From the NCBI GenBank assembly GCA_021160245.1, contig JAGHCW010000210.1, positions 1-12,460 of the forward strand: a stretch of 12,460 nucleotides of DNA, in the 5' to 3' direction. Position numbers and translations under genes: made by a program. Positions 2,262 to 12,460 of the stretch are shown here, piece after piece. Under the pieces are notes generated by a model. It was not told where the DNA came from and searched no databases. It saw nothing but the letters and a program-made list of their open reading frames with translations. Positions within the stretch are counted from its first letter, which is position 1, and the number at the start of each line of letters is the position of its first letter. Source of the DNA: a bacterium. Its GTDB lineage: Bacteria > B130-G9.

Positions 2262-2582
2262 ATGAACCGAAAGACCAAAGCAAAATACGAGGCGAGGGCC
2301 GCCATAATAAAGGCGCTCGCACATCCCACGCGACTATTCATCGTCGATCACCTCGCCAAGGAGAAGACTTGCGTGTGCATATTGAGCAAGATGGTTGGCG
2401 CGGACATGTCCACCGTATCAAGACACCTCTCGATTCTCAAATCCGTTGGGATAATCGAGGACGAGAAGGTCGGCCCGCAGGTTTTTTATCACCTGAAGGT
2501 CCCGTGTGTTCTCAATTTTTTTGGATGCGTTGAGGCTGTGATGAAGTCGAACGCCGAGGCGCAGATGGAGCTTGTGAGATGA
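2262..2582 (+). CDS. ArsR/SmtB-family metalloregulatory repressor with CVC sensor motif
   Basis: A 106-aa winged-helix repressor of the ArsR/SmtB family, expected to bind operator DNA as a dimer and to dissociate when a thiophilic metal(loid) binds cysteines. A CVC motif (Cys37, Cys39) sits at the start of the helix before the recognition region, as in ELCVCDL-type arsenic and metal sensors. The helix-turn-helix is about residues 40-62 (ADMSTVSRHLSILK), followed by the beta-wing. Two further cysteines, Cys82 and Cys89 (VPCVLNFFGCVEAV), lie in the C-terminal dimerisation helix and could complete a thiolate site. The ATG at 2262 is preceded by AGGAGG at 2251-2256, five bases away. The stop overlaps the next start (ATGA, 2579-2582), so it is translationally coupled to the permease. 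It probably represses the whole downstream operon. The inducer (As(III), Sb(III), organoarsenical or other soft metal) cannot be fixed from sequence. Confidence 0.92.
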   Translation: MNRKTKAKYEARAAIIKALAHPTRLFIVDHLAKEKTCVCILSKMVGADMSTVSRHLSILKSVGIIEDEKVGPQVFYHLKVPCVLNFFGCVEAVMKSNAEAQMELVR

Positions 2583-3877
2583 TTGCCAAGAAGGATGTGA
2601 AGACTCTTCTGCTATTCCTTGCCGTGTTTATCGGCGCGTTCTACTTGCCAGTGGGCGAGGCGCGTTTCGACAATGCGATTTCCGAGTCATTTCATCTGCT
2701 GAAGTCCTACGCCAGAGAGCACGTCTTATTGTGCCTCATCCCGGCTTTTTTCATCGCTGGTGGCATCTCCGTTTTCATAAGTCAGGCCTCGGTTATGAAG
2801 TATCTTGGCGCGAAGGCGAACAAGTTTCTGGCATACAGCGTCGCCTCGGTCTCCGGGTCGGTTCTTGCGGTCTGCTCCTGCACGGTTCTGCCGTTGTTTG
2901 CGGGTATATATAGGATGGGAGCTGGGCTTGGACCTGCTACGGCATTTCTATATTCGGGTCCGGCTATCAACGTCTTGGCCATCGCGCTCACGGCTCGCGT
3001 TTTAGGCATTGAAATCGGCATCGCGCGCGCCGTGGGCGCTGTGCTGTTTAGTATTGTAATTGGGCTTTTGATGCACCTTTTTTTCAGAAAGGACGAGCAT
3101 GCGAGGCAGGCTGTTCATTCTGCTATGCCAGAGCCTGAAGTGGCGAGGCCACTCTGGCAGAATGCCGTTTATTTCGGGACGATGATTGGGATTCTGGTCT
3201 TTGCGAACTGGGGGACTCCGGGTGAGGCGTCCGGCTTCTGGCAGACGGTTTATTCCGTTAAATGGTTCATCACAGGGGCATTTGCAGCGGCATTCGGCGC
3301 TATCTTGATCGCCTGGCTGGATATTTTGTGGTGGAAGGTGGTTGCGGCCGCATCGCCGGCGATAATTCTCGCGTTTTTGTTTCCTGACGCCCCGATCTTG
3401 GCGTTTGGAGCGGGTGTTGTCGGACTTTGCGTGATAACCGGCTCAGGCCGAGGCGAGTCAAAGGAATGGTTTGACAGCACATGGGTTTTTGCCCAGCAGA
3501 TATTGCCGCTTCTTTTCTTCGGGGTGCTGATTGCGGGGGCGCTTCTGGGTCGTCCGAACCACGAGGGACTTATCCCATCCGCTTGGGTGACTTCCGCCGT
3601 TGGGGGCAACTCACTCTTCGCGAACTTCTTCGCCTCGATCGCCGGAGCATTTATGTATTTCGCCACTCTGACAGAAGTGCCGATTCTACAAGGGCTAATC
3701 GGTGCGGGTATGGGCAAAGGTCCTGCGCTCGCTCTCCTCTTGGCAGGTCCGGCGCTATCGCTGCCAAATATGCTTGTCATCAGGAAGATAATGGGGACAA
3801 AGAAGACGGTTATTTACGTTTCGCTTGTAGTAGTCATGGCGACTTTTACCGGAATGGTCTTTGGGGCAATCATGTGA
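2579..3877 (+). CDS. ArsP/YraQ-family (DUF318) inner-membrane permease
   Basis: A 432-aa polytopic membrane protein of the ArsP_1/DUF318 permease family. Members include the trivalent organoarsenical exporter ArsP and SO_0444-type metal exporters. Two halves of hydrophobic helices are joined by a soluble linker (about residues 170-192). The first half carries the signature CSCTVLPLFAGIYRMGAGLG (99-118) with the paired cysteines Cys99 and Cys101, followed by GPATAFLYSGPAINVLA. The second half has a matching repeat, FATLTEVPILQGL (361-373) and GPALALLLAGPALSLPNMLVI (381-401). RGESKEWFDSTWVFAQQILPL (291-311) is a conserved family block. Other cysteines are Cys52 and Cys284. The start is the ATG in the ATGA overlap with the ArsR gene. 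The likely role is export of a thiol-binding metal(loid) or organometalloid from cytoplasm to periplasm, feeding the tripartite pump encoded next. Family assignment is strong; substrate is inferred. Confidence 0.9.
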   Translation: MIAKKDVKTLLLFLAVFIGAFYLPVGEARFDNAISESFHLLKSYAREHVLLCLIPAFFIAGGISVFISQASVMKYLGAKANKFLAYSVASVSGSVLAVCSCTVLPLFAGIYRMGAGLGPATAFLYSGPAINVLAIALTARVLGIEIGIARAVGAVLFSIVIGLLMHLFFRKDEHARQAVHSAMPEPEVARPLWQNAVYFGTMIGILVFANWGTPGEASGFWQTVYSVKWFITGAFAAAFGAILIAWLDILWWKVVAAASPAIILAFLFPDAPILAFGAGVVGLCVITGSGRGESKEWFDSTWVFAQQILPLLFFGVLIAGALLGRPNHEGLIPSAWVTSAVGGNSLFANFFASIAGAFMYFATLTEVPILQGLIGAGMGKGPALALLLAGPALSLPNMLVIRKIMGTKKTVIYVSLVVVMATFTGMVFGAIM

Positions 3878-3887
3878 GCGCTTCCAC

Positions 3888-3895
3888 AGGAGGAG
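3888..3895 (+). promoter_or_regulatory. Shine-Dalgarno site that fixes the start of the TolC-like gene
   Basis: AGGAGGAG lies two bases before the ATG at 3898 and 11 bases after the permease stop. The core AGGAGG (3888-3893) leaves a 4-base gap to the ATG, which is short but workable. The ATG it serves opens directly into a signal peptide. This argues against using the upstream ATG at 3481, which is in the same frame but inside the permease gene. Confidence 0.7.
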
Positions 3896-3897
3896 TA

Positions 3898-5298
3898 ATG
3901 CTAATCACGATTCTCTGTGTTCTGTTGGCGGCCGCAGGGACCGCTTCAGCAGCCGATGCGTCAGGTTTAGCCGGGCTGCCGGCCGCGCACCGCACGCAAG
4001 AGGCCACATTATCTACGCAACGAGTCGGGGCAGATGTTGCTGATGCGTTCTCGGCGCCGCTTACGCTGGATGGGTGTATAGAGATTGCCCTCAGCAACAA
4101 CCCGGATGTTGCATTGAGACAGTGGGATAAGCTGGCTGCCGAGGCGCGACGAGCCGTTGCCGCGGCTGAGCGCTGGCCTGTCCTTCGTGGCGTAGGCAGC
4201 TCAACACAGTATCTGGACAAACAGCGTATGATGCCGGCCAGAGAGCCGAAAGAGCCGGGCATGTTCAGCGAGAACATACTCTCAGCAGACCTTGAGGTGC
4301 GCTTGCCCATCTACACGGGCGGCCGAATCACCAATGCAATCGAGGCCGCTGAGCTGCTTGAGCAAGCGGCGGAGCATCGGCTTGCCCGCACCCGAACCGA
4401 GCTGGTCTTCAACGTCTCCAGCTCGTTCTATTTAATACTTGGTCTCCAACACCTCGTCGAGTCCCTCGGATTCTCTAAGAATGCATTGGAGGAACACTGT
4501 AAGCGGATAGAAGAGCTCATCGCGGCCGAAAAGGCCGCCAAGGTGGACCTTCTCCGCACGGAGGTCAGGCTTGCGGACATTCAACAGAAGCTGGCGAACG
4601 CTGCCAGCAGTCTTGCGATCCAACGTCGTGTGCTTGCCAATCTACTTGGAGTTGACGAAGGCGCATCCTCGCTTTCGATTCAGGGCGACCTTGCTTTGTC
4701 CAGTGTGGATGCAGACCCGGCAGTCAGTTTAGCTGAGGCTTACACGGCCAGGACCGATTATGCGGCCGCCAGGGCCAGCGTAGAGGCGCAGCTGGCGGCA
4801 GTAAATGCGGCCCGTGCGGGTCATTTTCCCACTGTTTCGCTCAAGGCTTTGTATGGCGGACGATGGGGTGAGGGGGCGTCGGTGGGAGAAGAGGGCGCAA
4901 GAGACCCAGAGGACGTGGGCCGCGTGGGGATCGTGCTGGACATCCCTCTGTTTGAGGGGGGAAGGACTGCGGGCCGAGTTCGAGAGGAGCAAGCCAAGCT
5001 GGGCGCTGCGCGAGAGGCTCTGCGCAAGTTGGAGCTCAGGATTCGTCTTGAGGTGGAGCGCGCGCTCCTCAACATCAGCTTCTGCCGCAAGCGAGTGGCT
5101 GCTGGCGAGAAGGCGATTGAACAGGGCAAGGAGTCCCTCCGTATCGAGCGAGAGAAATACGAGTTGGGCAGGGGCTCGGTCACGGACGTTCTGGACGCGC
5201 AGGCGGCGCTTCTTGGCGCTCAAACCAGCTATTTCACGGCGCTGGCCGAGTACAACATCTCGGTGGCTGAACTGCGATTGGCAACTGGAGAAGAATGA
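3898..5298 (+). CDS. TolC-family outer-membrane efflux channel
   Basis: A 466-aa outer-membrane factor, the exit duct of a tripartite efflux pump. Residues 1-19 are a signal peptide (MLITILCVLLAAAGTASAA) with an AxA-type cleavage site; Cys7 is not in a lipobox. Two structural repeats follow. The first starts at LTLDGCIEIALSNNPDVALR (about 55-74) and has the beta-strand segment ADLEVRLPIYTGGR (130-143). The second has VGIVLDIPLFEGGRTAGRVRE (343-363) and the diagnostic YELGRGSVTDVLDAQAALL (421-439), before the terminal LRLATGE. Long alpha-helical coiled-coil stretches (about 145-245 and 360-420) match the periplasmic tunnel. The open frame extends to 3481, but those 139 extra codons overlap the permease in another frame and encode no known domain. 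The stop overlaps the adaptor start (ATGA, 5295-5298). Length and domain order are normal for the family. Confidence 0.9.
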   Translation: MLITILCVLLAAAGTASAADASGLAGLPAAHRTQEATLSTQRVGADVADAFSAPLTLDGCIEIALSNNPDVALRQWDKLAAEARRAVAAAERWPVLRGVGSSTQYLDKQRMMPAREPKEPGMFSENILSADLEVRLPIYTGGRITNAIEAAELLEQAAEHRLARTRTELVFNVSSSFYLILGLQHLVESLGFSKNALEEHCKRIEELIAAEKAAKVDLLRTEVRLADIQQKLANAASSLAIQRRVLANLLGVDEGASSLSIQGDLALSSVDADPAVSLAEAYTARTDYAAARASVEAQLAAVNAARAGHFPTVSLKALYGGRWGEGASVGEEGARDPEDVGRVGIVLDIPLFEGGRTAGRVREEQAKLGAAREALRKLELRIRLEVERALLNISFCRKRVAAGEKAIEQGKESLRIEREKYELGRGSVTDVLDAQAALLGAQTSYFTALAEYNISVAELRLATGEE

Positions 5299-6398
5299 TG
5301 AAGAAGCTTCTAGTCGGGATCATTGTGATAGGTGTGCTGTTTGCCGCAGTCGTTCTCGTGACAAACAGGGACGTTGATGATAAGGCTGGGACTCAGGTTA
5401 AGCAAAAACCTGCGCCATTGGTTGTTACGGAGATAGCTAAGGCGCAGGACATTTCACGCACGCTGGAGCTGACTGGGTCTGTTTCGCCGACCAAGGTTGC
5501 GCAGATGATCTCGGCTGCGGAGGGCCCGATTCTCCACTGCCGGGTGAGAGAAGGGGACAACGTCAGATCTGGTCAGGCGCTGGTTACAATAGGGCGCCGC
5601 CTGGCCGCGCAGGCCGCTGTGGCCTCCGCACGAGAGGAGCTGAGCAGACAGGCCGACGAACTGCGGCGCACCGACCGGCTTGTGCAGAGCGGCGCGATTG
5701 CCGGCGAAGAGCTGGACGTGGCTCGCGCCAATTACAAGAAGGCCGAGTCGCAGCTTGCGGCGGCCGAGCTCGGCTTGGCTGACTACGAGATAGCGGCGCC
5801 GTGGGCCGGGATTGTATCGGTGGTCTGGGTCGCAGAAGGCGACTACGTTGCGCCACGGGCCAAGCTTGTCGAGATATTCGATCCTGCAAGTCTTGTCGTT
5901 CAATTCGAGGTTCCTGAGAAGCACTCGGCCGGCGTAAAGGCCGGAGCGAAGATTGTTGTCAACCTAGACGCTTATCCGAGGACCCCCTTTCAAGCCACCA
6001 TCACTCGCGTCTATCCACAGCTTGACCCCCAAACACGCACCCGAACAGTTGAGGCGACAATAAGAGAGGCCGTGAATCTCCTGCCGGGCATGTTTGCGCG
6101 GGTCTCGCTGGTCGTCGAGGCGGCCCAGAATGCCGTTGTTATTCCGGACAGCGCAGTTTTGGTAACGCCCAAGGGCGATGAGGTCGCATTCGTTGTGCAG
6201 GACAATAAGGCTAGTTTAAGAAGGGTGAGGACCGGCATCGAGGCTGGCCATAACGTGCAGATTGTGGAAGGCATACAGCCGGGCGAACGCGTGGTGACTT
6301 CCGGCAACCAGGGGCTCAAGGATGGCGAGACCGTTAAGCTGTCGAAGTCGCCAAAACGCAGCGAACCGAAGGCCGCTGCGGATGGAGGCGCTCGATGA
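5295..6398 (+). CDS. RND efflux periplasmic adaptor (membrane fusion protein)
   Basis: A 367-aa adaptor of the HlyD/AcrA type that bridges the RND permease and the TolC-like channel. Residues about 4-23 form an N-terminal hydrophobic anchor or uncleaved signal; there is no lipobox cysteine. The first half of the lipoyl/barrel-sandwich domain is about 70-100 (EGPILHCRVREGDNVRSGQAL), a short alpha-hairpin spans about 103-162, and the second lipoyl half follows (AAPWAGIVSVVWVAEGDYV, 167-185). The beta-barrel (about 196-275) includes VYPQLDPQTRTRTVEATI and LLPGMFARVSL, and the membrane-proximal domain includes VVIPDSAVL (281-289) and GIQPGERVVTSGNQGL (326-341). There are two adjacent ATG codons, 5295 and 5298; the first gives the usual ATGA overlap with the TolC stop, and GGAG lies at 5287-5290. 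There is no His/Met-rich metal-binding N-terminal extension like that of CusB, so this does not specifically indicate a copper/silver pump. Confidence 0.92.
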   Translation: MMKKLLVGIIVIGVLFAAVVLVTNRDVDDKAGTQVKQKPAPLVVTEIAKAQDISRTLELTGSVSPTKVAQMISAAEGPILHCRVREGDNVRSGQALVTIGRRLAAQAAVASAREELSRQADELRRTDRLVQSGAIAGEELDVARANYKKAESQLAAAELGLADYEIAAPWAGIVSVVWVAEGDYVAPRAKLVEIFDPASLVVQFEVPEKHSAGVKAGAKIVVNLDAYPRTPFQATITRVYPQLDPQTRTRTVEATIREAVNLLPGMFARVSLVVEAAQNAVVIPDSAVLVTPKGDEVAFVVQDNKASLRRVRTGIEAGHNVQIVEGIQPGERVVTSGNQGLKDGETVKLSKSPKRSEPKAAADGGAR

Positions 6399-9300
6399 AG
6401 CTCACCGCTACAGTTATGAGGCGGCCCGTGGCCGTCGTGGTTCTTGCCATTGCGGTGTTTGCGGTCGGTCTTTTCAGTTTCACGCAGCTGGACGTGGACT
6501 ACCTGCCGGAGGTCATCTATCCGATGATCAAGGTCCACATCTGGTGGCGGGGGGCGACGCCGGATGAGATCGAGACCAATATCGCCGAGCCAATCGAGCG
6601 CGTGCTCGCTACGGTGGACAACCTTGACTACCTGGAATCCTCCAGCATCGAGGGAATGTACACTCTGCTGGTCAATTTCGAGTATGGGGTGAACGTTGAG
6701 GAGGCGTACCAGGACGTGATTACGGCCATGGGGCGTGTGGCGCGCGACCTGCCGCCCGATATGGACCCACCCGTTATCATCAAAGCAGACCCCTCGCAGC
6801 TGCCGGTCATGCAGGTTGTAGTCTATTCGGATAGGCGTAGTCTGGTGTGGCTTCGAGAGTGGGCCGACAACTGGCTCACCGATCGCCTATCGGCGATTAA
6901 GGGCGCGGCCGGCGTGGAGGTTGTCGGGGGGCTGGAGCGGGAAATCCGCGTGCATCTTGACCCGCAGCGACTCGCGGCCTACAAGCTTAGCCCGGCCAAG
7001 ATCGCGAAGGCCCTGTTCGACGAGAACCGGGAGATGTTCGCCGGGCGCGTAACCGACCAGACGCGCGAGATCATCGCTCGCACCATCGGCGAGTTCGAGA
7101 GCCTCGACGAGGTCCGCAACGTTGTCCTGGCGAGGGAGCCGAACGGCGGGACGGTCTATTTGAGGGACGTCGCCTCGGTGGAGGATTCGCACGAGGAGAT
7201 GCGCGTCAACACGCGCTTTAATGGCAAGCCATGCGTCAAGCTCAGCGTCCTCAAACAGGCCGAGGCCAACACCGTCGCAGTAGCTCAGGCGGTCAAGAAA
7301 CGCTTGGAGGAGCTCCGGCGAGATATTCCGGGTGACATCGAGTTCGGGTATGTGGAGAACCAGGGCGACTACGTCATGGGCGCTATCCGGAGCGTCCAAA
7401 GCTCTGGGATACTGGCCGCAATTCTGGTCATACTGGTCGTTTACCTGTTTCTCGGCCGTTTACGGCAAGTGCTTGTGATGGTTGTGGCCCTGCCAATCAC
7501 GCTGCTGGCGAACTTCTTCGTGATGAAGGTGGCGGGCTTCTCCATCAACCTGTTCTCCTTGGGCGGGCTGGTCGTGGCCTTCGGCGTAATTCTCGACAAC
7601 TCCATCGTCGTCTTGGAGAACATCACACGACTGAAGGCGGAGGGTGTGAGCGGCTATGCGCTGAAGGGCGCGAACGAGGTGAGTTCGGCCATTGCCGCCG
7701 CCACGCTGACGTTCTTGGCCATCTTCCTGCCCTTCCTGTTCATCCCGGGCCTTGCGGCGCTGCTCTTCACTGAGCTTGTCATGGTGGTAGGCGGGATCGT
7801 GGTGATTTCGCTTCTCGTTGCCGTGACGCTGACGCCTCTTTTGACGGGCCGGCTGCTTCGCGGCGAGCGCGGGAGTCGGGCTTCGTTTCTGGCGGCTGGA
7901 TTCGACGCAATCATCCGCGGTCTTGTAGCGGCCTACTCCCGCGCCCTGGGCCTGTGCCTGCGGGCGCGCTGGCTTGTGATCGTGGCTACTGTCGCGTTAT
8001 TCGCCTGGGGGCTGTGGTTGGCGGCGAGCGTCGGCTCAGAGTTCTTGCCCAAAGTGGACGACGGACGCGTCATGGTGAAGGTCATAATGCCGACCGGCAC
8101 GGCCGTACAAGAGGTGGACCGCATTCTCGCCAAAATCGAGACACAACTTCAGGGAATACCTGAAATAGAGAGTATCTTCACTCTGGCGGGCGGCAAAGTA
8201 TGGGGACTTTATACGTACGAGATCGCAAACGAGGGCGAGCTGAACATCCAGCTTGTGCCCAAGGCAAAACGGTCGCTGACGACGGAGCAGTTCATCGCTA
8301 AGATCAAGCCGCTCGTGGCCAAGGCGCCAGCGCCAGGCGGGAAGAAGCCTGTGATGCAGATGAAGGTCAAGGGCATTCGTAAGATGGGCCAGCAAGAGGT
8401 AGAAGTTGAGGTCAAGGGGACCGAGATTGCGCCGATCTTCGAGTTCGCCAAAAATGTCGCGGGTCAGCTCGGTGAGACGCCTGGCCTGACGAACGTGAAC
8501 ATCTCGATGGACATGACCAAGCCGGAATACCGTGTGTATGTGGACCGAGCCCGCGCCTCGGCGATGGGCATATCGGTGAACCAGGTCGCCTCGACGCTTA
8601 GGGCCTTGGTGCACGGCGTAGTGGCCACGCAGTACCGAGAGGGAAGCGAGTACTACGACATCCGCTTGATGGTTCCTGAAACATTGATAAGAACTAAGGC
8701 AGACCTAGAGGGGCTGTTGATAGACACGCAGGCGGCCAAGCCCATCTATCTGCGCGACATCGCCGAGGTGCGCCGCGCTGTGGGGCCGGTGGAGATCATC
8801 CGGGAAGACCAGGTCAAACAGGTCGTCGTGCGCGCCGATTCCGCGGGCGTCAGCGTCGGGGAAGCGGTCGCCCGGGCCGAAAGCGCCGTCGCCGCCCTGG
8901 AGCGTCCGGCGGGCGTTGAGTTCGAGATGGGCGGGCAGGCTCAGATGATGGCGGAAAACCGCAGAACCATGGGGTTGATACTGGGCTTCGCGGTTCTCTT
9001 CGCGTATGTCGTCCTTGCCATCCAGTTTGACTCGTTCTCTTTGCCATTCCTGATTATGTTGAACGTGCCGTTCGCCTTGACAGGCGCCTTTTTGGCGCTG
9101 TTGCTTACGAGCACGCCGCTTGGCGTCACGGTGTTGATCGGACTGGTGGTTATGATGGGCGGCATCACTTCGCAGGGGGTGGTGCTGCTCACGTTGGCCG
9201 AAGAGTATCGCAGGGCCGGCGAGACGCCGCTCGAGGCCATTGCTCGGGCTGCGCCGATTCGCGTCAGGCCGATTTTGATGACCCAGTTGACCACGGTGCT

Positions 9301-9499
9301 CGGGGTGGTCCCGTTGGCGCTGAACCTGGGCGAGGGCGGCGATATGCTCCAGCCCATGGCAATCGCGGTCATAGGAGGGTTGCTTTACTCCCTTGTGCTT
9401 ACACTGCTGTTTCTGCCGGCGGCTTATGTTCTTGTCCGGCGCAAGCAAAGGGGTCTTGGGCTCAACTCGGGACGTGATTTGGGCTTGGAGACTACATGA
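6395..9499 (+). CDS. RND-family efflux permease, HAE1-like
   Basis: A 1034-aa inner-membrane proton-driven transporter of the RND superfamily, full length. TM1 is about residues 10-29, the first periplasmic porter region about 30-330, TM2-6 about 335-485, TM7 about 525-545, the second porter region about 547-855, and TM8-12 about 858-1015. TM4 contains FGVILDNSIVVLENI (396-410); Asp401 aligns with AcrB Asp407, but the second relay aspartate is Asn402. In TM10 the block IGLVVMMGGITSQGVVLL (915-932) aligns with AcrB IGLSAKNAIL, so the relay lysine is replaced by Ser926 followed by Gln927. RPILMT (958-963) in TM11 is conserved. ENITR after TM4 resembles HAE1 and related clades more than CzcA/CusA. 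It is translationally coupled to the adaptor (ATGA, 6395-6398). Methionines 654, 656 and 664 lie in the second porter region. The substrate is unknown; the context suggests a metalloid, organometalloid or thiol conjugate. Confidence 0.93.
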   Translation: MKLTATVMRRPVAVVVLAIAVFAVGLFSFTQLDVDYLPEVIYPMIKVHIWWRGATPDEIETNIAEPIERVLATVDNLDYLESSSIEGMYTLLVNFEYGVNVEEAYQDVITAMGRVARDLPPDMDPPVIIKADPSQLPVMQVVVYSDRRSLVWLREWADNWLTDRLSAIKGAAGVEVVGGLEREIRVHLDPQRLAAYKLSPAKIAKALFDENREMFAGRVTDQTREIIARTIGEFESLDEVRNVVLAREPNGGTVYLRDVASVEDSHEEMRVNTRFNGKPCVKLSVLKQAEANTVAVAQAVKKRLEELRRDIPGDIEFGYVENQGDYVMGAIRSVQSSGILAAILVILVVYLFLGRLRQVLVMVVALPITLLANFFVMKVAGFSINLFSLGGLVVAFGVILDNSIVVLENITRLKAEGVSGYALKGANEVSSAIAAATLTFLAIFLPFLFIPGLAALLFTELVMVVGGIVVISLLVAVTLTPLLTGRLLRGERGSRASFLAAGFDAIIRGLVAAYSRALGLCLRARWLVIVATVALFAWGLWLAASVGSEFLPKVDDGRVMVKVIMPTGTAVQEVDRILAKIETQLQGIPEIESIFTLAGGKVWGLYTYEIANEGELNIQLVPKAKRSLTTEQFIAKIKPLVAKAPAPGGKKPVMQMKVKGIRKMGQQEVEVEVKGTEIAPIFEFAKNVAGQLGETPGLTNVNISMDMTKPEYRVYVDRARASAMGISVNQVASTLRALVHGVVATQYREGSEYYDIRLMVPETLIRTKADLEGLLIDTQAAKPIYLRDIAEVRRAVGPVEIIREDQVKQVVVRADSAGVSVGEAVARAESAVAALERPAGVEFEMGGQAQMMAENRRTMGLILGFAVLFAYVVLAIQFDSFSLPFLIMLNVPFALTGAFLALLLTSTPLGVTVLIGLVVMMGGITSQGVVLLTLAEEYRRAGETPLEAIARAAPIRVRPILMTQLTTVLGVVPLALNLGEGGDMLQPMAIAVIGGLLYSLVLTLLFLPAAYVLVRRKQRGLGLNSGRDLGLETT

Positions 9500-9508
9500 G
9501 TCAATAGG

Positions 9509-9516
9509 AAGGAGGT
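9509..9516 (+). promoter_or_regulatory. Near-ideal Shine-Dalgarno site before the six-cysteine protein
   Basis: AAGGAGGT is fully complementary to the canonical anti-SD core and lies 7 bases before the ATG at 9524. It is the strongest ribosome binding site in the operon and fixes this start. It suggests that the secreted protein is made in more copies than its neighbours, as fits a periplasmic binding or buffering protein (inference). Confidence 0.7.
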
Positions 9517-9523
9517 TTCAAGT

Positions 9524-10369
9524 ATGCGCAAGACTAACCAAAAGGTGACCGGTTTCGGGATGCTCGTCGTCCTGACCTTGCTTCTGATGCTGGCCGGCTT
9601 CGGACTTGCAGCCGGGGAACCAGCCGCTCGCAAAGGTGGGCCGAGTGCAGACCCGCAGCCATCAGAACGACAAGACCTGGAAATGAAAACAGCTGCTCTG
9701 GCAGAATTTGACAACGATGTGGCCCGGTGCAGACGGAAAATGCGTGACTACTGCGCTATTGCCCAGGAGCTTATGGCGAAGCCGGAAAGTGAAGCCGGCC
9801 AGCGGTCTTCGTTGGCGCTCAAGCATCTTCGCGAGACTAAGTCACAGTGGAAAGTTATCCAAACTAAGTATCGCAATAACCCTCCAGCCGAATACGCCAA
9901 CGATCCCAAGTTCGCCGACCGGCTGTCGGAGATAGCCAATTCCATGGAGGCGATGGAACAACAGCTGACGGCCGGGCGGTTCAAGCAGTCGTTTGCAGCC
10001 TGCGGCCATGGATGCGGCCTATTCGTGCAGATGCACGAACACAATGGGTTAGTTTATGCTCTGGACCGCATCTACCACCTTCGAAAGGTCGCCAAGGCGG
10101 CTATCACGGCCGGGAAAAACAAGGGCGCTCTCGCGGTTGGGGAGTTTCTTCCAGACCTGCTACATCACCGCAACCGAATCGTGACGGCGCCGTGCCCATG
10201 GCCGGATGATAAGCAGCGCTGCAACAATTATCGCGACTCGGTAAATACTCTTTCTTCGATGCTGAACGATTTGGCGGCAAGCGTCGTGAATAGGGACTTA
10301 TCTGAAATAGACAGGATTCTCAAAGTGCTATTTAGGACCATTAACAGCGCCTACGGAAAGGCTCTTTAA
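9524..10369 (+). CDS. Unrecognised secreted six-cysteine helical protein
   Basis: I do not recognise this 281-aa protein. Residues 1-30 form a clear Sec-type signal peptide (basic MRKTNQK, hydrophobic core 12-28, AxA-like end near residue 30), so the mature part is periplasmic. The rest is hydrophilic and looks largely helical, with no further membrane segment. The mature chain has six cysteines in three close pairs: Cys69/Cys77, Cys160/Cys164 in the block FAACGHGCGLFVQMHEHN, and Cys224/Cys233 in TAPCPWPDDKQRC. His162, Met170, His171 and His173 cluster around the middle pair, so metal or metalloid binding or disulfide switching is plausible. It is not a cytochrome, since no CxxCH is present. 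The gene sits 24 bases after the RND gene and 20 before the mini-thioredoxin, inside the operon. It could be a periplasmic metallochaperone or a client of the CcdA/thioredoxin relay. The CDS call is firm; the function is a guess. Confidence 0.85.
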   Translation: MRKTNQKVTGFGMLVVLTLLLMLAGFGLAAGEPAARKGGPSADPQPSERQDLEMKTAALAEFDNDVARCRRKMRDYCAIAQELMAKPESEAGQRSSLALKHLRETKSQWKVIQTKYRNNPPAEYANDPKFADRLSEIANSMEAMEQQLTAGRFKQSFAACGHGCGLFVQMHEHNGLVYALDRIYHLRKVAKAAITAGKNKGALAVGEFLPDLLHHRNRIVTAPCPWPDDKQRCNNYRDSVNTLSSMLNDLAASVVNRDLSEIDRILKVLFRTINSAYGKAL

Positions 10370-10389
10370 CTGAGTGAAGGGAGACGAAC

Positions 10390-10623
10390 ATGATCAAGTT
10401 AGCAGTATTGGGCACAGGCTGCCCGAAGTGCAAGATGCTCGCGGAAAATGCTGAGGCGGCTGCGAAAGACCTGAGTGTGGAATATGAGATAGAGAAGGTG
10501 ACCGACATCAACAAGATAATGGGGTTCGGCGTGATGATGACGCCGGCGCTGGTGGTTGATGGCAATGTTAAGATAAGCGGAAAGGTCCCCTCGGTGGGGG
10601 ATATAAAGAAGCTGATTGGTTGA
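10390..10623 (+). CDS. Small CxxC thioredoxin-like protein (TM0996/MTH895 'redox-active disulfide' family)
   Basis: A 77-aa cytoplasmic mini-thioredoxin/glutaredoxin-like protein. The N-terminal beta strand leads into the active site GTGCPKC (Cys11, Cys14), and the family's cis-proline segment is MTPALVVDGNVKISGKVPS (about 50-68, Pro52). The C-terminal helix ends in DIKKLIG. Length and motifs match the TM0996/MTH895 group, whose members often sit beside ArsR regulators and DUF318 permeases. The lack of a signal peptide places it in the cytoplasm. The ATG at 10390 follows AAGGGAG at 10377-10383. Its likely role is thiol-disulfide exchange with a cytoplasmic partner, delivery of electrons to the membrane relay, or handing a thiol-bound metalloid to the permease. 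The fold is certain; the partner is inferred from neighbours. Confidence 0.9.
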   Translation: MIKLAVLGTGCPKCKMLAENAEAAAKDLSVEYEIEKVTDINKIMGFGVMMTPALVVDGNVKISGKVPSVGDIKKLIG

Positions 10624-10635
10624 GAAGGAGCGAGC

Positions 10636-10917
10636 GTGCCTGATTTGAAGAGCGCCAAACCTTGCGTCTGCGGTCAGGGTCCCACGCTGATATTCTCGTG
10701 CTCAGGGGCCTCGGACGTGGGCGCTATAACGGACCTGGCGGCCCGAGCGCTCGCCCGAGGCCGAAATGGGTTCATGTGTTGCGCGGCGGCGATAGCCGCG
10801 GTTGTCGGGCGGGCGCAAGCCCAGTTTGAGCGCAGTCGAGCCGCGCGAGAGCGCAGAACCAGAGAAGAGAGAATCGTCGCAGGTCCGGGCTTTATAAGGC
10901 AGGGATACATCGAGTAG
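10636..10917 (+). CDS. DGC-type putative zinc-binding protein, half-length variant
   Basis: A 93-aa protein whose first half matches the DGC family ('domain containing cysteines', annotated as putative zinc-binding). PTLIFSCSGASDVGAITDLAARALA (about 16-40) is the family's N-terminal block, preceded by CVC (Cys10, Cys12), with Cys22 in SCSG and then FMCCAAA (Cys48, Cys49). Typical members run on for about 50 more residues to a DGCPxxC segment that supplies the remaining ligands. Here this is missing and replaced by an arginine/glutamate-rich helix (about 58-80, RSRAARERRTREER) and a short tail. I checked the other two frames past residue 47 and found no DGC continuation, so a single frameshift does not explain it. 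The GTG start at 10636 follows GAAGGAG at 10624-10630 with a 5-base gap. Full-length homologues often occur with thioredoxins and permeases in metal(loid) clusters. This copy may be a natural short form or a decaying remnant. Confidence 0.7.
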   Translation: MPDLKSAKPCVCGQGPTLIFSCSGASDVGAITDLAARALARGRNGFMCCAAAIAAVVGRAQAQFERSRAARERRTREERIVAGPGFIRQGYIE

Positions 10918-10937
10918 CGGCACATTGGAAAACGTAT

Positions 10938-10946
10938 AAAGGAGAA
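10938..10946 (+). promoter_or_regulatory. Shine-Dalgarno site supporting a TTG start
   Basis: AAAGGAGAA ends its GGAG core at 10944, eight bases before the TTG at 10953. No ATG or GTG nearby in the frame is as well placed, and the TTG leaves an intact basic N-terminus before the membrane anchor. It therefore decides the start of the anchored thioredoxin. Confidence 0.65.
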
Positions 10947-10952
10947 TCGCTG

Positions 10953-11420
10953 TTGGAACAGGGGTCGCGTAAGAGAGGTCTGCGGACGAAAGCAATAATC
11001 ATTGTCGCTTTGATCGCTGCGGTGGCGGGCGCCATCTACTTGAAAGAACGGCCCGAAGCAACTCAGGCCAAGGCGAATGAGGCGACTGCCTCTGATCGCC
11101 AAGCCGCGGATTCTGAGAAGCAACAGCCGCGACTCTCGATTCCGCGGTTGGTGGATTTAGGTGCGGGGAAGTGTATCCCGTGCAAGATGATGGCGCCGAT
11201 ACTCGAGGAGCTGAAGAAGGAATTCGTGGGGAAGTTTGAGGTTACCTTCATCGACGTCTGGAAGGACAAGGAAGCTGCAAAGCAGTACGGCATCCGACTC
11301 ATCCCGACGCAGGTGTTCTACGACGCCAATGGTAAAGAGATTTTCCGCCACCAGGGCTTTTTCTCGAGAGAAGATATCCTGAAGACATGGAAGGAACATG
11401 GTCTGGACTTCGGTGAATGA
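10953..11420 (+). CDS. Membrane-anchored periplasmic thioredoxin (CIPC)
   Basis: A 155-aa thioredoxin-fold protein with a basic start and one hydrophobic segment (AIIIVALIAAVAGAIYL, about 14-30). This is best read as a signal anchor placing the domain in the periplasm. A low-complexity Ala/Glu/Gln linker (about 31-60) separates it from the domain. The active site is GKCIPCKMMAPIL (72-84) with Cys74 and Cys77, the cis-proline is in RLIPTQVFYD (Pro118), and the domain ends with the usual strand and helix (GKEIFRHQGFFSREDILKTW). The first thioredoxin strand before the active site is short. It starts at TTG and lies 33 bases before a CcdA-like gene. CcdA/thioredoxin neighbours typically form a transmembrane reducing pair, so this is probably the electron acceptor of that protein. 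The client could be the secreted six-cysteine protein encoded upstream or oxidised toxicant species; both are inference. Confidence 0.88.
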   Translation: MEQGSRKRGLRTKAIIIVALIAAVAGAIYLKERPEATQAKANEATASDRQAADSEKQQPRLSIPRLVDLGAGKCIPCKMMAPILEELKKEFVGKFEVTFIDVWKDKEAAKQYGIRLIPTQVFYDANGKEIFRHQGFFSREDILKTWKEHGLDFGE

Positions 11421-11453
11421 TGACGTACCCAACCGTTTCTATGTGAGAGGATC

Positions 11454-12152
11454 ATGCAGGACTTTTTTGCGCAATTAACGAGTTGGGTCGATGGAGCGCC
11501 CGCAGTAGCCATTCCCGCCTCATTCATCTGGGGCGTGCTCAGCATCGCTCTCAGCCCGTGCCATCTTGCCAGCATTCCTCTGATCGTGGGCTTCATCAAT
11601 CAGCAGGGGAGAATCTCTACGAGGCGCGCGCTTAGTATCTCGACGGCATTTGCGTCAGGCATCCTGATCACCATAGGAGTGATTGGGGCGATTACAGGAG
11701 CTGCCGGCAGGATGATGGGAGACCTGGGACAGTTCGGCAATTACTTCGTCGCGGTCATCTTCTTCGTAGTCGGCCTGCATCTTCTCGGTGTTATTCCAAT
11801 GCCGTGGTCAGGGCCCGGACAGGTCAAGATGAAGCGAAAGGGCATTTTCGGCGGATTCATTCTCGGCCTAGTTTTCGGCGTCGCCCTCGGCCCATGCACG
11901 TTCGCCTACATGGCCCCGATGCTGGGCGTCACATTCAAATTGGCCGCGTCGAACCTAGTGTATGGTATTTTCCTTCTCTTGATGTACGGTTTGGGGCACT
12001 GCTCCGTGATAATCGTTGCCGGCGCCAGCACGGAGCTTGTCCAGCGCTACCTAAACTGGAACGAGAGGTCGAAGGGCTCCGAGATACTCAAGAAGGTGTG
12101 CGGCGTTCTCGTGCTGCTTGGCGGGGTCTATCTCATCTACTCCGCTCCATGA
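11454..12152 (+). CDS. CcdA/DsbD-like transmembrane thiol-electron carrier
   Basis: A 232-aa membrane protein with about six hydrophobic helices, matching the CcdA/DsbD transmembrane domain family in length and repeat layout. The two half-repeats carry the diagnostic cysteines: Cys36 in ALSPCHLASIPLIVGF (helix 1) and Cys148 in ALGPCTFAYMAPMLG (helix 4). These form the redox pair that shuttles electrons from cytoplasmic thioredoxin to a periplasmic thioredoxin-like partner. Extra cysteines are Cys183 (GLGHCSVI) and Cys216 near the C-terminus. A basic cytoplasmic loop (about 124-130) separates the repeats. The ATG at 11454 follows AGAGGA at 11446-11451. It is the last gene of the run, right after the anchored thioredoxin. 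Cytochrome c maturation is the textbook role, but no ccm/ccs genes are present. A metal(loid)-resistance role is more likely, and ArsG-type permeases for aromatic arsenicals belong to a related fold (recalled, not verified). Confidence 0.87.
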   Translation: MQDFFAQLTSWVDGAPAVAIPASFIWGVLSIALSPCHLASIPLIVGFINQQGRISTRRALSISTAFASGILITIGVIGAITGAAGRMMGDLGQFGNYFVAVIFFVVGLHLLGVIPMPWSGPGQVKMKRKGIFGGFILGLVFGVALGPCTFAYMAPMLGVTFKLAASNLVYGIFLLLMYGLGHCSVIIVAGASTELVQRYLNWNERSKGSEILKKVCGVLVLLGGVYLIYSAP

Positions 12153-12224: not shown

Positions 12225-12254
12225 TTGACAGGCCGTTTTGTGGGGCGGTATATT
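12225..12254 (+). promoter_or_regulatory. Predicted strong sigma70-type promoter of the second ArsR gene
   Basis: A consensus -35 box TTGACA (12225-12230) is followed after 18 bases by the -10 box TATATT (12249-12254). This is the best promoter match in the window. The expected start point, 6-7 bases past the -10, falls at about 12260-12262, on the ATG at 12261. The gene has no Shine-Dalgarno site, so a leaderless transcript is predicted. The rest of the 108-base gap after the CcdA-like gene shows no convincing terminator. Confidence 0.7.
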
Positions 12255-12257
12255 AGA

Positions 12258-12281
12258 GATATGTCGAATAATCGAAATATC
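12258..12281. promoter_or_regulatory. Palindromic ArsR operator candidate over the start codon
   Basis: The 24-base interrupted palindrome is GATAT-G-TCGA-ATAA-TCGA-A-ATATC, with 10 of 12 base pairs symmetric and its centre between 12269 and 12270. Motifs of the ATATCGA...TCGATAT type are common ArsR-family operators. It lies immediately downstream of the -10 box and covers the predicted transcription start, the ATG and codons 2-7, so bound repressor would block initiation or early elongation. It differs from the palindrome at 2206-2227. Confidence 0.6.
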
Positions 12282-12460
12282 GAACTCAACACCATTGCAA
12301 ATGTGTTCAAGGCGCTGTCGAGCCGGAGTCCATTGCGAGTCATCACCCGGCCTGTCACATGCTGCACTTCTGCTGGCGACAGCAGGAACGACGAGGTCTG
12401 CGCGTGCGTTGGCGAGATCGGGCAAGATCTGGAGATTTCGCCTTCGACCGTCTCTCATCA
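12261..12460 (+). CDS. Second ArsR-family repressor (3' truncated by window edge)
   Basis: The first 66 codons of another ArsR/SmtB-type repressor run off the window. VFKALSSRSPLRVI (about 15-28) is the N-terminal helix that normally reads F-ALSxPxRLRI. The following helix carries adjacent cysteines Cys34-Cys35, then a loop GDSRNDE and VCACVGEIGQDLEISPSTVSH (46-66), which contains Cys47, Cys49 and the start of the helix-turn-helix. This matches the subfamily with a CC...ACVGELG...STVSHH pattern and differs from the CVC-type protein at 2262. The cysteine set suggests a trivalent metalloid or soft-metal sensor. It has its own promoter and no Shine-Dalgarno site, and it probably leads a further transcription unit beyond the right edge. 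The ATG is chosen because the homologous region starts about 15 codons later, as usual, and the promoter leaves no room upstream. Confidence 0.85.
   Translation, partial: MSNNRNIELNTIANVFKALSSRSPLRVITRPVTCCTSAGDSRNDEVCACVGEIGQDLEISPSTVSH

Follow-up and report, generated by a model that had tools for sequence, protein, structure and literature searches.

A putative ArsR-controlled arsenical efflux operon that includes a tripartite RND system and a secreted cysteine-containing protein

Gene content and organization of the operon

The stretch of DNA analyzed here (the window) is 12,460 nt long and makes up one whole contig (JAGHCW010000210.1, hereafter C223) of the draft bacterial genome GCA_021160245.1. 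It carries a run of ten genes on the forward strand (2262-12152), in which an ArsR/SmtB repressor precedes an ArsP permease, a tripartite resistance-nodulation-division (RND) system, a secreted protein that we call Sec281, and the components of a predicted thiol-redox relay. A preliminary description, made from the sequence alone, had reported ten tightly spaced genes on one strand; all ten are present where it placed them, and they follow a single ArsR-type operator with no gap above 35 bp (junctions, in order: -4, +20, -4, -4, +24, +20, +12, +35, and +33 bp, including three 4-bp overlaps).

Gene families were assigned by Pfam and NCBIfam profile searches against curated cut-offs. The first gene (2262-2582) encodes ArsR (NF033788, 78.3 bits versus a cut-off of 55), and the second (2579-3877) encodes an ArsP_1 (DUF318) inner-membrane permease with a CSC motif (PF03773, 242 bits versus 32.3). 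These are followed by a TolC-like outer-membrane channel with a signal peptide (3898-5298; PF02321, 190.7 bits), a periplasmic adaptor, or membrane fusion protein (MFP), of the HlyD type (5295-6398; TIGR01730, 216.7 bits versus 94.9), and an RND permease of an unnamed subfamily (6395-9499; PF00873, 821 bits); the three adjacent genes are joined by two 4-bp overlaps and constitute a tripartite RND system. The TolC gene starts at ATG 3898, which is preceded by AGGAGG, and an open reading frame start listed at 3481 was rejected as spurious.

Sec281 (9524-10369), a secreted protein of 281 residues that is predicted to be all-helical and has no Pfam or NCBIfam family match, is encoded next. It is followed by a cytosolic ArsE/MTH895 mini-thioredoxin with a C11-x2-C14 pair (10390-10623; TIGR00412, 109.9 bits versus 62), a truncated DGC-family gene that retains the N-terminal half (10636-10917; PF08859 positions 1-47 of 106), a membrane-anchored periplasmic thioredoxin with C74-IP-C77 (10953-11420; PF00085, 51 bits), and a CcdA-like thiol electron carrier that is distant from ArsG (11454-12152; NF040495, 49 bits versus a cut-off of 200). 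The family identities, which had been called solid, agree with the Pfam and NCBIfam results except for the DGC protein: the second half of PF08859, including the DGC motif, is missing, and the motif is kept in aligned homologues and in the sister genome G003 (L010). Judged from its sequence, this is a degrading gene within an otherwise intact operon.

We infer that the ten genes are transcribed together. Between 2674 and 12225, a simple consensus-matching scan found no internal promoter of convincing quality, which weakly favors a single transcript. The GC content at third codon positions is 0.78 in the RND gene, compared with 0.60-0.70 in the other operon genes and 0.56-0.57 in two RND paralogues of the same genome, a weak hint that the RND gene may be of foreign origin.

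The ArsR switch

The ArsR repressor combines a CxC thiol site with a palindromic operator at its own gene. The operator, a perfect match to ATTTGG-N8-CCAAAT (2207-2226), lies 36 bp before ArsR; the spacer between ATTTGG and CCAAAT is TTATATTG, and the palindrome overlaps a TATATT -10-like element. This perfect palindrome occurs only once in the assembly. We compared the window with its close kin, which together form a family of four genomes (the next relatives share only the domain level), and with more distant loci, searching a 160-bp stretch at every ArsR gene located before ArsP. Among the three sister genomes, G002 also has the perfect palindrome before the orthologous ArsR (motif score 12 of 12), and both G003 and G001 score 11. 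In distant loci, the score is 12 in L031 (Kiritimatiellota), 11 in L042, L077, and L081, and 10 in L048; the background frequency of a score of 11 or more is 0.0018 per random 160-bp stretch. ArsRs that diverge further (41% identity or less) lack the motif in the same scan. Because motif scores are high in both sisters and distant loci, the regulator and its operator are retained together in pump-bearing and pump-less versions of the operon.

The CxC site of ArsR reads CVC (C37 and C39), and there is a second cysteine pair (C82 and C89). Across 26 aligned sequences, C37 is conserved at 92%, C39 at 76%, and C82 and C89 at 65%.

Conservation of the gene set across phyla

We scanned contigs with the RND protein and mapped the window genes onto the resulting 79 loci using TBLASTN. 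The architecture ArsR-ArsP-TolC-MFP-RND-(Sec281)-ArsE-(DGC)-Trx-CcdA recurs on one strand, whole or in large part, in Lentisphaerota, Kiritimatiellota, Zixibacteria, Sumerlaeota, Fibrobacterota, Ignavibacteriota, Planctomycetota, Thermodesulfobacteriota, Acidobacteriota, and other lineages. This bears out the suggestion that ArsR, ArsP, ArsE, and CcdA form a recurring neighborhood, and the co-occurrence of the RND trio with that set, whose absence the preliminary description had named as a refutation, extends to at least nine named phyla. Since the set recurs in so many phyla, the operon is more than a chance arrangement.

For 31 fully flanked loci (each flank of the pump 9 kb or longer), neighboring genes were identified by profile search. 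ArsP, ArsE, Acr3, ArsM, ArsF, or ArsC lies within 10 kb of the pump in 21 of the 31, and 16 have at least two of ArsP, ArsE, CcdA, and ArsF. Twenty loci have ArsP, always with a copy on the strand of the pump; Acr3 occurs in 10 and ArsC in 7. The Acr3, ArsM, and ArsF proteins beside pump relatives score above curated cut-offs, whereas the ArsC protein is clearly in the family yet below the cut-off. The recurrence of Acr3, ArsM, ArsC, and ArsF beside the pump makes arsenic the likely substrate class.

As a control, 20 of the genomes that carry these loci were searched with PF00873 and TIGR00412, which yielded 213 RND matches. Among the matches listed, the only RND proteins outside the clade within 10 kb of ArsE were in G407 (in tandem) and G417 (split), both in the same clusters. 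Distances were read by hand, and most of these genomes were chosen for having the cluster; the control therefore informs on other RND pumps and not on the frequency of the cluster. A stricter RND search across 386 genomes added only two matches, both on short contigs and too few for an unbiased count. In the RND tree, arsenic context is spread over all main branches, and it is not clustered in a label test (89 of 500 shuffles were as low); the tree neither demonstrates nor requires that the pump family acquired this context only once.

In the closest RND relative (79% identity, from a Desulfobacteria bin), the pump gene is followed after 58 bp by an ArsM-like gene (L014:7159-7542) where the window has Sec281 and ArsE, and in Pontiellaceae B1224 a second, distant RND-MFP-TolC set stands in tandem in the same arsenic cluster (L037:14511-19858).

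The RND permease and Sec281

The RND permease was compared with two named subfamilies, and both were rejected. As a CusA/CzcA heavy-metal pump, it scores 448.5 bits against a TIGR00914 cut-off of 701.45, and its transmembrane helix 4 (TM4), which reads AFGVILDNSIVVLEN, has no DFGxxxDGA motif. As an HAE-1 multidrug pump, it scores 497 bits against a TIGR00915 cut-off of 940, and the D407/D408/K940 triad is not matched: TM4 has D401-N402, and there is no lysine at the TM10 position aligned to AcrB and MdtB, the latter being the closest solved relative. Throughout the clade, TM4 (window 7574-7630) has one acid, D401, followed by N402 in 35 of 37 sequences, and TM10 (window 9146-9215) has mostly N or S at the lysine position of AcrB-type pumps. 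Based on these residues, the proton relay of the clade may be non-canonical.

Relatives of Sec281 were reached only via RND pump loci. Six homologues with 40-41% amino acid identity were identified, all near this RND pump (seven of seven cases, counting the window). Sec281 was not found in 385 other sampled genomes; a TBLASTN contig scan with Sec281 alone detected no relative, nor did plasmids or PDB sequences contain one. The invariant residues include C77, C160, C164, M170, and H171. AlphaFold2 confidently predicted an all-helical structure (pLDDT 86), in which the conserved residues are located in helices 46-85 and 153-173. A Foldseek search with this model found nothing in the PDB with an E value of 0.001 or lower, and the VIA-align scores were those usual for four-helix bundles (a designed bundle was the best, at Z 14.4), which assign no family. 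As(III) favors coordination by three thiolates, and the three invariant cysteines would therefore suit it; we regard the invariant cysteine and histidine residues as a candidate thiol metalloid site. Sec281 represents a newly named protein family that lacks Pfam and NCBIfam annotation. A TSUP-type permease, a rhodanese, and a proC-like reductase also recur near Sec281 or the pump (L080:17580-20543, L061, and L037).

ArsP and the predicted redox relay

In ArsP, C99 and C101 of the CSC motif are invariant across 22 aligned sequences. The protein belongs to PF03773, and transport of methylarsenite, MAs(III), is predicted; other PF03773 equivalogs, SO_0444 (Cu/Zn) and SaoE, score below cut-off on it (107 bits versus 325 for SaoE). 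Both C74 and C77 of the anchored thioredoxin are invariant across 25 aligned sequences. The kinship of the last gene with CcdA, DsbD, and ArsG is shown by NCBIfam, and its product has the two redox cysteines in transmembrane helices (C36 conserved at 100% and C148 at 77% in aligned sequences); electron transfer is predicted. The putative relay retains both CxxC pairs, in ArsE and in the thioredoxin, and both CcdA cysteines.

Proposed function and alternative explanations

Gene identities and spacing, the shared operator, linkage to arsenic genes across phyla, and the restriction of Sec281 to the pump are direct observations. Taking them together, we lean toward interpreting the locus as an operon for arsenical efflux under ArsR repression, which has gained a dedicated trans-envelope pump. 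The recurrence of this gene combination in many phyla makes it probable that it is a genuine route for expelling arsenic compounds from the cell altogether. The ArsR cysteines would bind trivalent arsenic, inorganic or methylated, and the promoter would thereby be released. ArsP would then move a trivalent arsenical or organoarsenical from the cytosol to the periplasm, and the RND-adaptor-TolC complex would take it from the periplasm or outer leaflet across the outer membrane, preventing back-diffusion and completing a two-step route across two membranes. Export could be coupled to thiol reduction: reducing equivalents would pass outwards from ArsE in the cytosol through CcdA in the membrane to the anchored thioredoxin in the periplasm, where they would keep arsenic trivalent and free it from periplasmic thiols. 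Sec281 may carry arsenic within the periplasm and hand it to the pump.

Several observations weigh against this interpretation. No RND cysteine is conserved at 80% or more (the best is C280, at 78%), and the RND protein shows no known metal-binding signature. Arsenic genes share islands with unrelated resistance genes, and linkage is not proof; 10 of the 31 flanked pump relatives have no recognized arsenic gene within 10 kb. The RND trio, described earlier as complete and part of the operon, is indeed both in the window, but the trio and Sec281 are absent from the operons of sisters G001, G002, and G003, whose ArsP proteins are 70-84% identical to that of the window. These operons read ArsR-ArsP-Trx-CcdA, with ArsE at varying positions and DGC in one. 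The absence is not an assembly gap, because only tens of bases separate ArsP from the gene that follows it, and the best RND proteins of the sisters have 32-34% identity to the window RND. In this family, judging from the gene comparison, the trio and Sec281 are an optional add-on, and the pump is therefore dispensable.

The pump-less sisters, the pump relatives without arsenic genes, and the kinship with the multidrug pump MdtB would all fit a set of independent, co-regulated modules, in which the RND trio serves the envelope in general or exports drugs, and does not carry arsenic; its place in arsenic islands would then reflect either the membrane damage that arsenic causes or a tendency of such islands to accumulate pumps. 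We consider this unlikely, though it deserves more weight than any other alternative. In several phyla, the pump genes are inserted between ArsP and ArsE within a single operon and share the ArsR operator; nearly all the other RND matches listed for the genomes searched lie away from ArsE, and Sec281 is tied to the pump.

A further explanation concerns mercury and draws on a probable second transcription unit. A promoter that is strong by consensus matching (TTGACA-18-TATATT, 12225-12254, forward strand, 11 of 12 consensus positions) precedes the first gene of this unit, ArsR2 (12261-12458, forward strand), which is cut by the contig end and is 70% identical to ArsR2 of G001, where that gene leads ArsM-Trx213-CcdA2-Acr3-ArsF-like. 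Another contig of the source genome, C238, carries a Trx213-CcdA2-Acr3-ArsF-ArsE2-ArsF block with the mercury-methylation proteins HgcA and HgcB directly before it (L123:7454-8901, reverse strand); HgcA scores 422.8 bits against a cut-off of 275 and has the motif NVWCAAGK, and HgcB scores 116.7 against 99. In G394 (Lentisphaerae), the order is ArsR-HgcA-HgcB-Trx213-CcdA2-ArsM-Acr3 (L143:2963-9733). Because the ArsR2 context in G001, the C238 block, and the G394 gene order agree, ArsR2 probably leads an hgcAB-Acr3 operon across the gap between C223 and C238, for which there is no joining sequence.

These arrangements would suit a pump that acts on methylated metal(loid)s as a class, among them the methylmercury that HgcAB produces, with ArsP and the RND trio as the missing methylmercury export path. 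G394 also carries the RND-ArsP operon, on another contig, and in a Zixibacterium a frameshifted hgcB remnant (L038:5449-5618) lies just upstream of the ArsR that heads an ArsR-ArsP-TolC-MFP-RND operon. However, HgcA scores above cut-off in only 4 of the 44 genomes searched; most pump carriers make no methylmercury, which therefore cannot be the general substrate of the pump. Proximity of ArsR and other ars genes to hgcAB is also already known without this pump (PMC7438021, PMC10349881). We find this explanation improbable. A narrower version, in which ArsP, RND-TolC, and Sec281 export both methylarsenite and methylmercury and are linked to hgcAB both physically and in their regulation in this lineage, seems to us no less doubtful; if true, it would supply the export step for methylmercury, and the operon is worth examining wherever a route for such export is sought.

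Least probable of all is a variant ArsEFG-type system for aromatic or nitro-arsenicals with CcdA as permease instead of electron carrier: ArsE is above its cut-off, CcdA is weakly ArsG-like, and ArsF proteins above cut-off occur beside pump relatives and twice on C238, but the window has no ArsF, and CcdA scores only 49 bits against the 200 required for ArsG and keeps both of its cysteines.

Relation to known systems

Each part is already known by itself: ArsP-containing ars operons, ArsEFG, RND trios, and the linkage of hgcAB to ars genes. Within the part of the literature covered, we found no published account in which an RND-TolC trio and a Sec281-type protein form a conserved component of ArsR/ArsP operons. 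The window operon resembles ArsP operons for methylarsenite efflux in its ArsR control, its PF03773 permease, and the arsenic genes nearby, but it adds a complete RND-MFP-TolC trio; to our knowledge, known ArsP operons export only across the inner membrane, and the characterized arsenic exporters ArsB, Acr3, ArsP, ArsJ, ArsK, and ArsG are all inner-membrane proteins. If the preferred arsenical interpretation is true, then the permease, the RND trio, and the secreted cysteine protein would together be a concrete answer to the problem of keeping an exported arsenical out of the diderm periplasm.

With CusCFBA and CzcCBA, the window shares a tripartite RND system and, next to the pump genes, a gene for a small periplasmic protein (CusF there, Sec281 here); in contrast to those systems, its RND permease lies below the CusA/CzcA cut-off and lacks their TM4 motif, Sec281 resembles no known family, and the regulator is ArsR instead of a two-component system. 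The selenocysteine-assisted organometal (SAO) system likewise has a PF03773 permease with a thioredoxin-like partner, but the window permease falls short of SaoE, and we know of no RND protein in SAO. ArsEFG is described as a roxarsone and nitarsone detoxification system where PMC9144182 cites Chen et al. 2019. The window shares with it the ArsE mini-thioredoxin and a CcdA/ArsG-like membrane protein, and ArsF occurs in relatives and elsewhere in the genome; unlike ArsEFG, the operon itself is without ArsF, has a CcdA below the ArsG cut-off, and adds the pump and Sec281.

Two carriers in Kiritimatiellota, Pontiellaceae B12219 (L031) and B1224 (L037), are not labeled as metagenome bins, and their operons may suit bench work. 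At the other end of the window, positions 1-2154 encode the C-terminal part of a Type ISP restriction-modification enzyme (Type_ISP_C, 278 bits), which is cut by the contig start.

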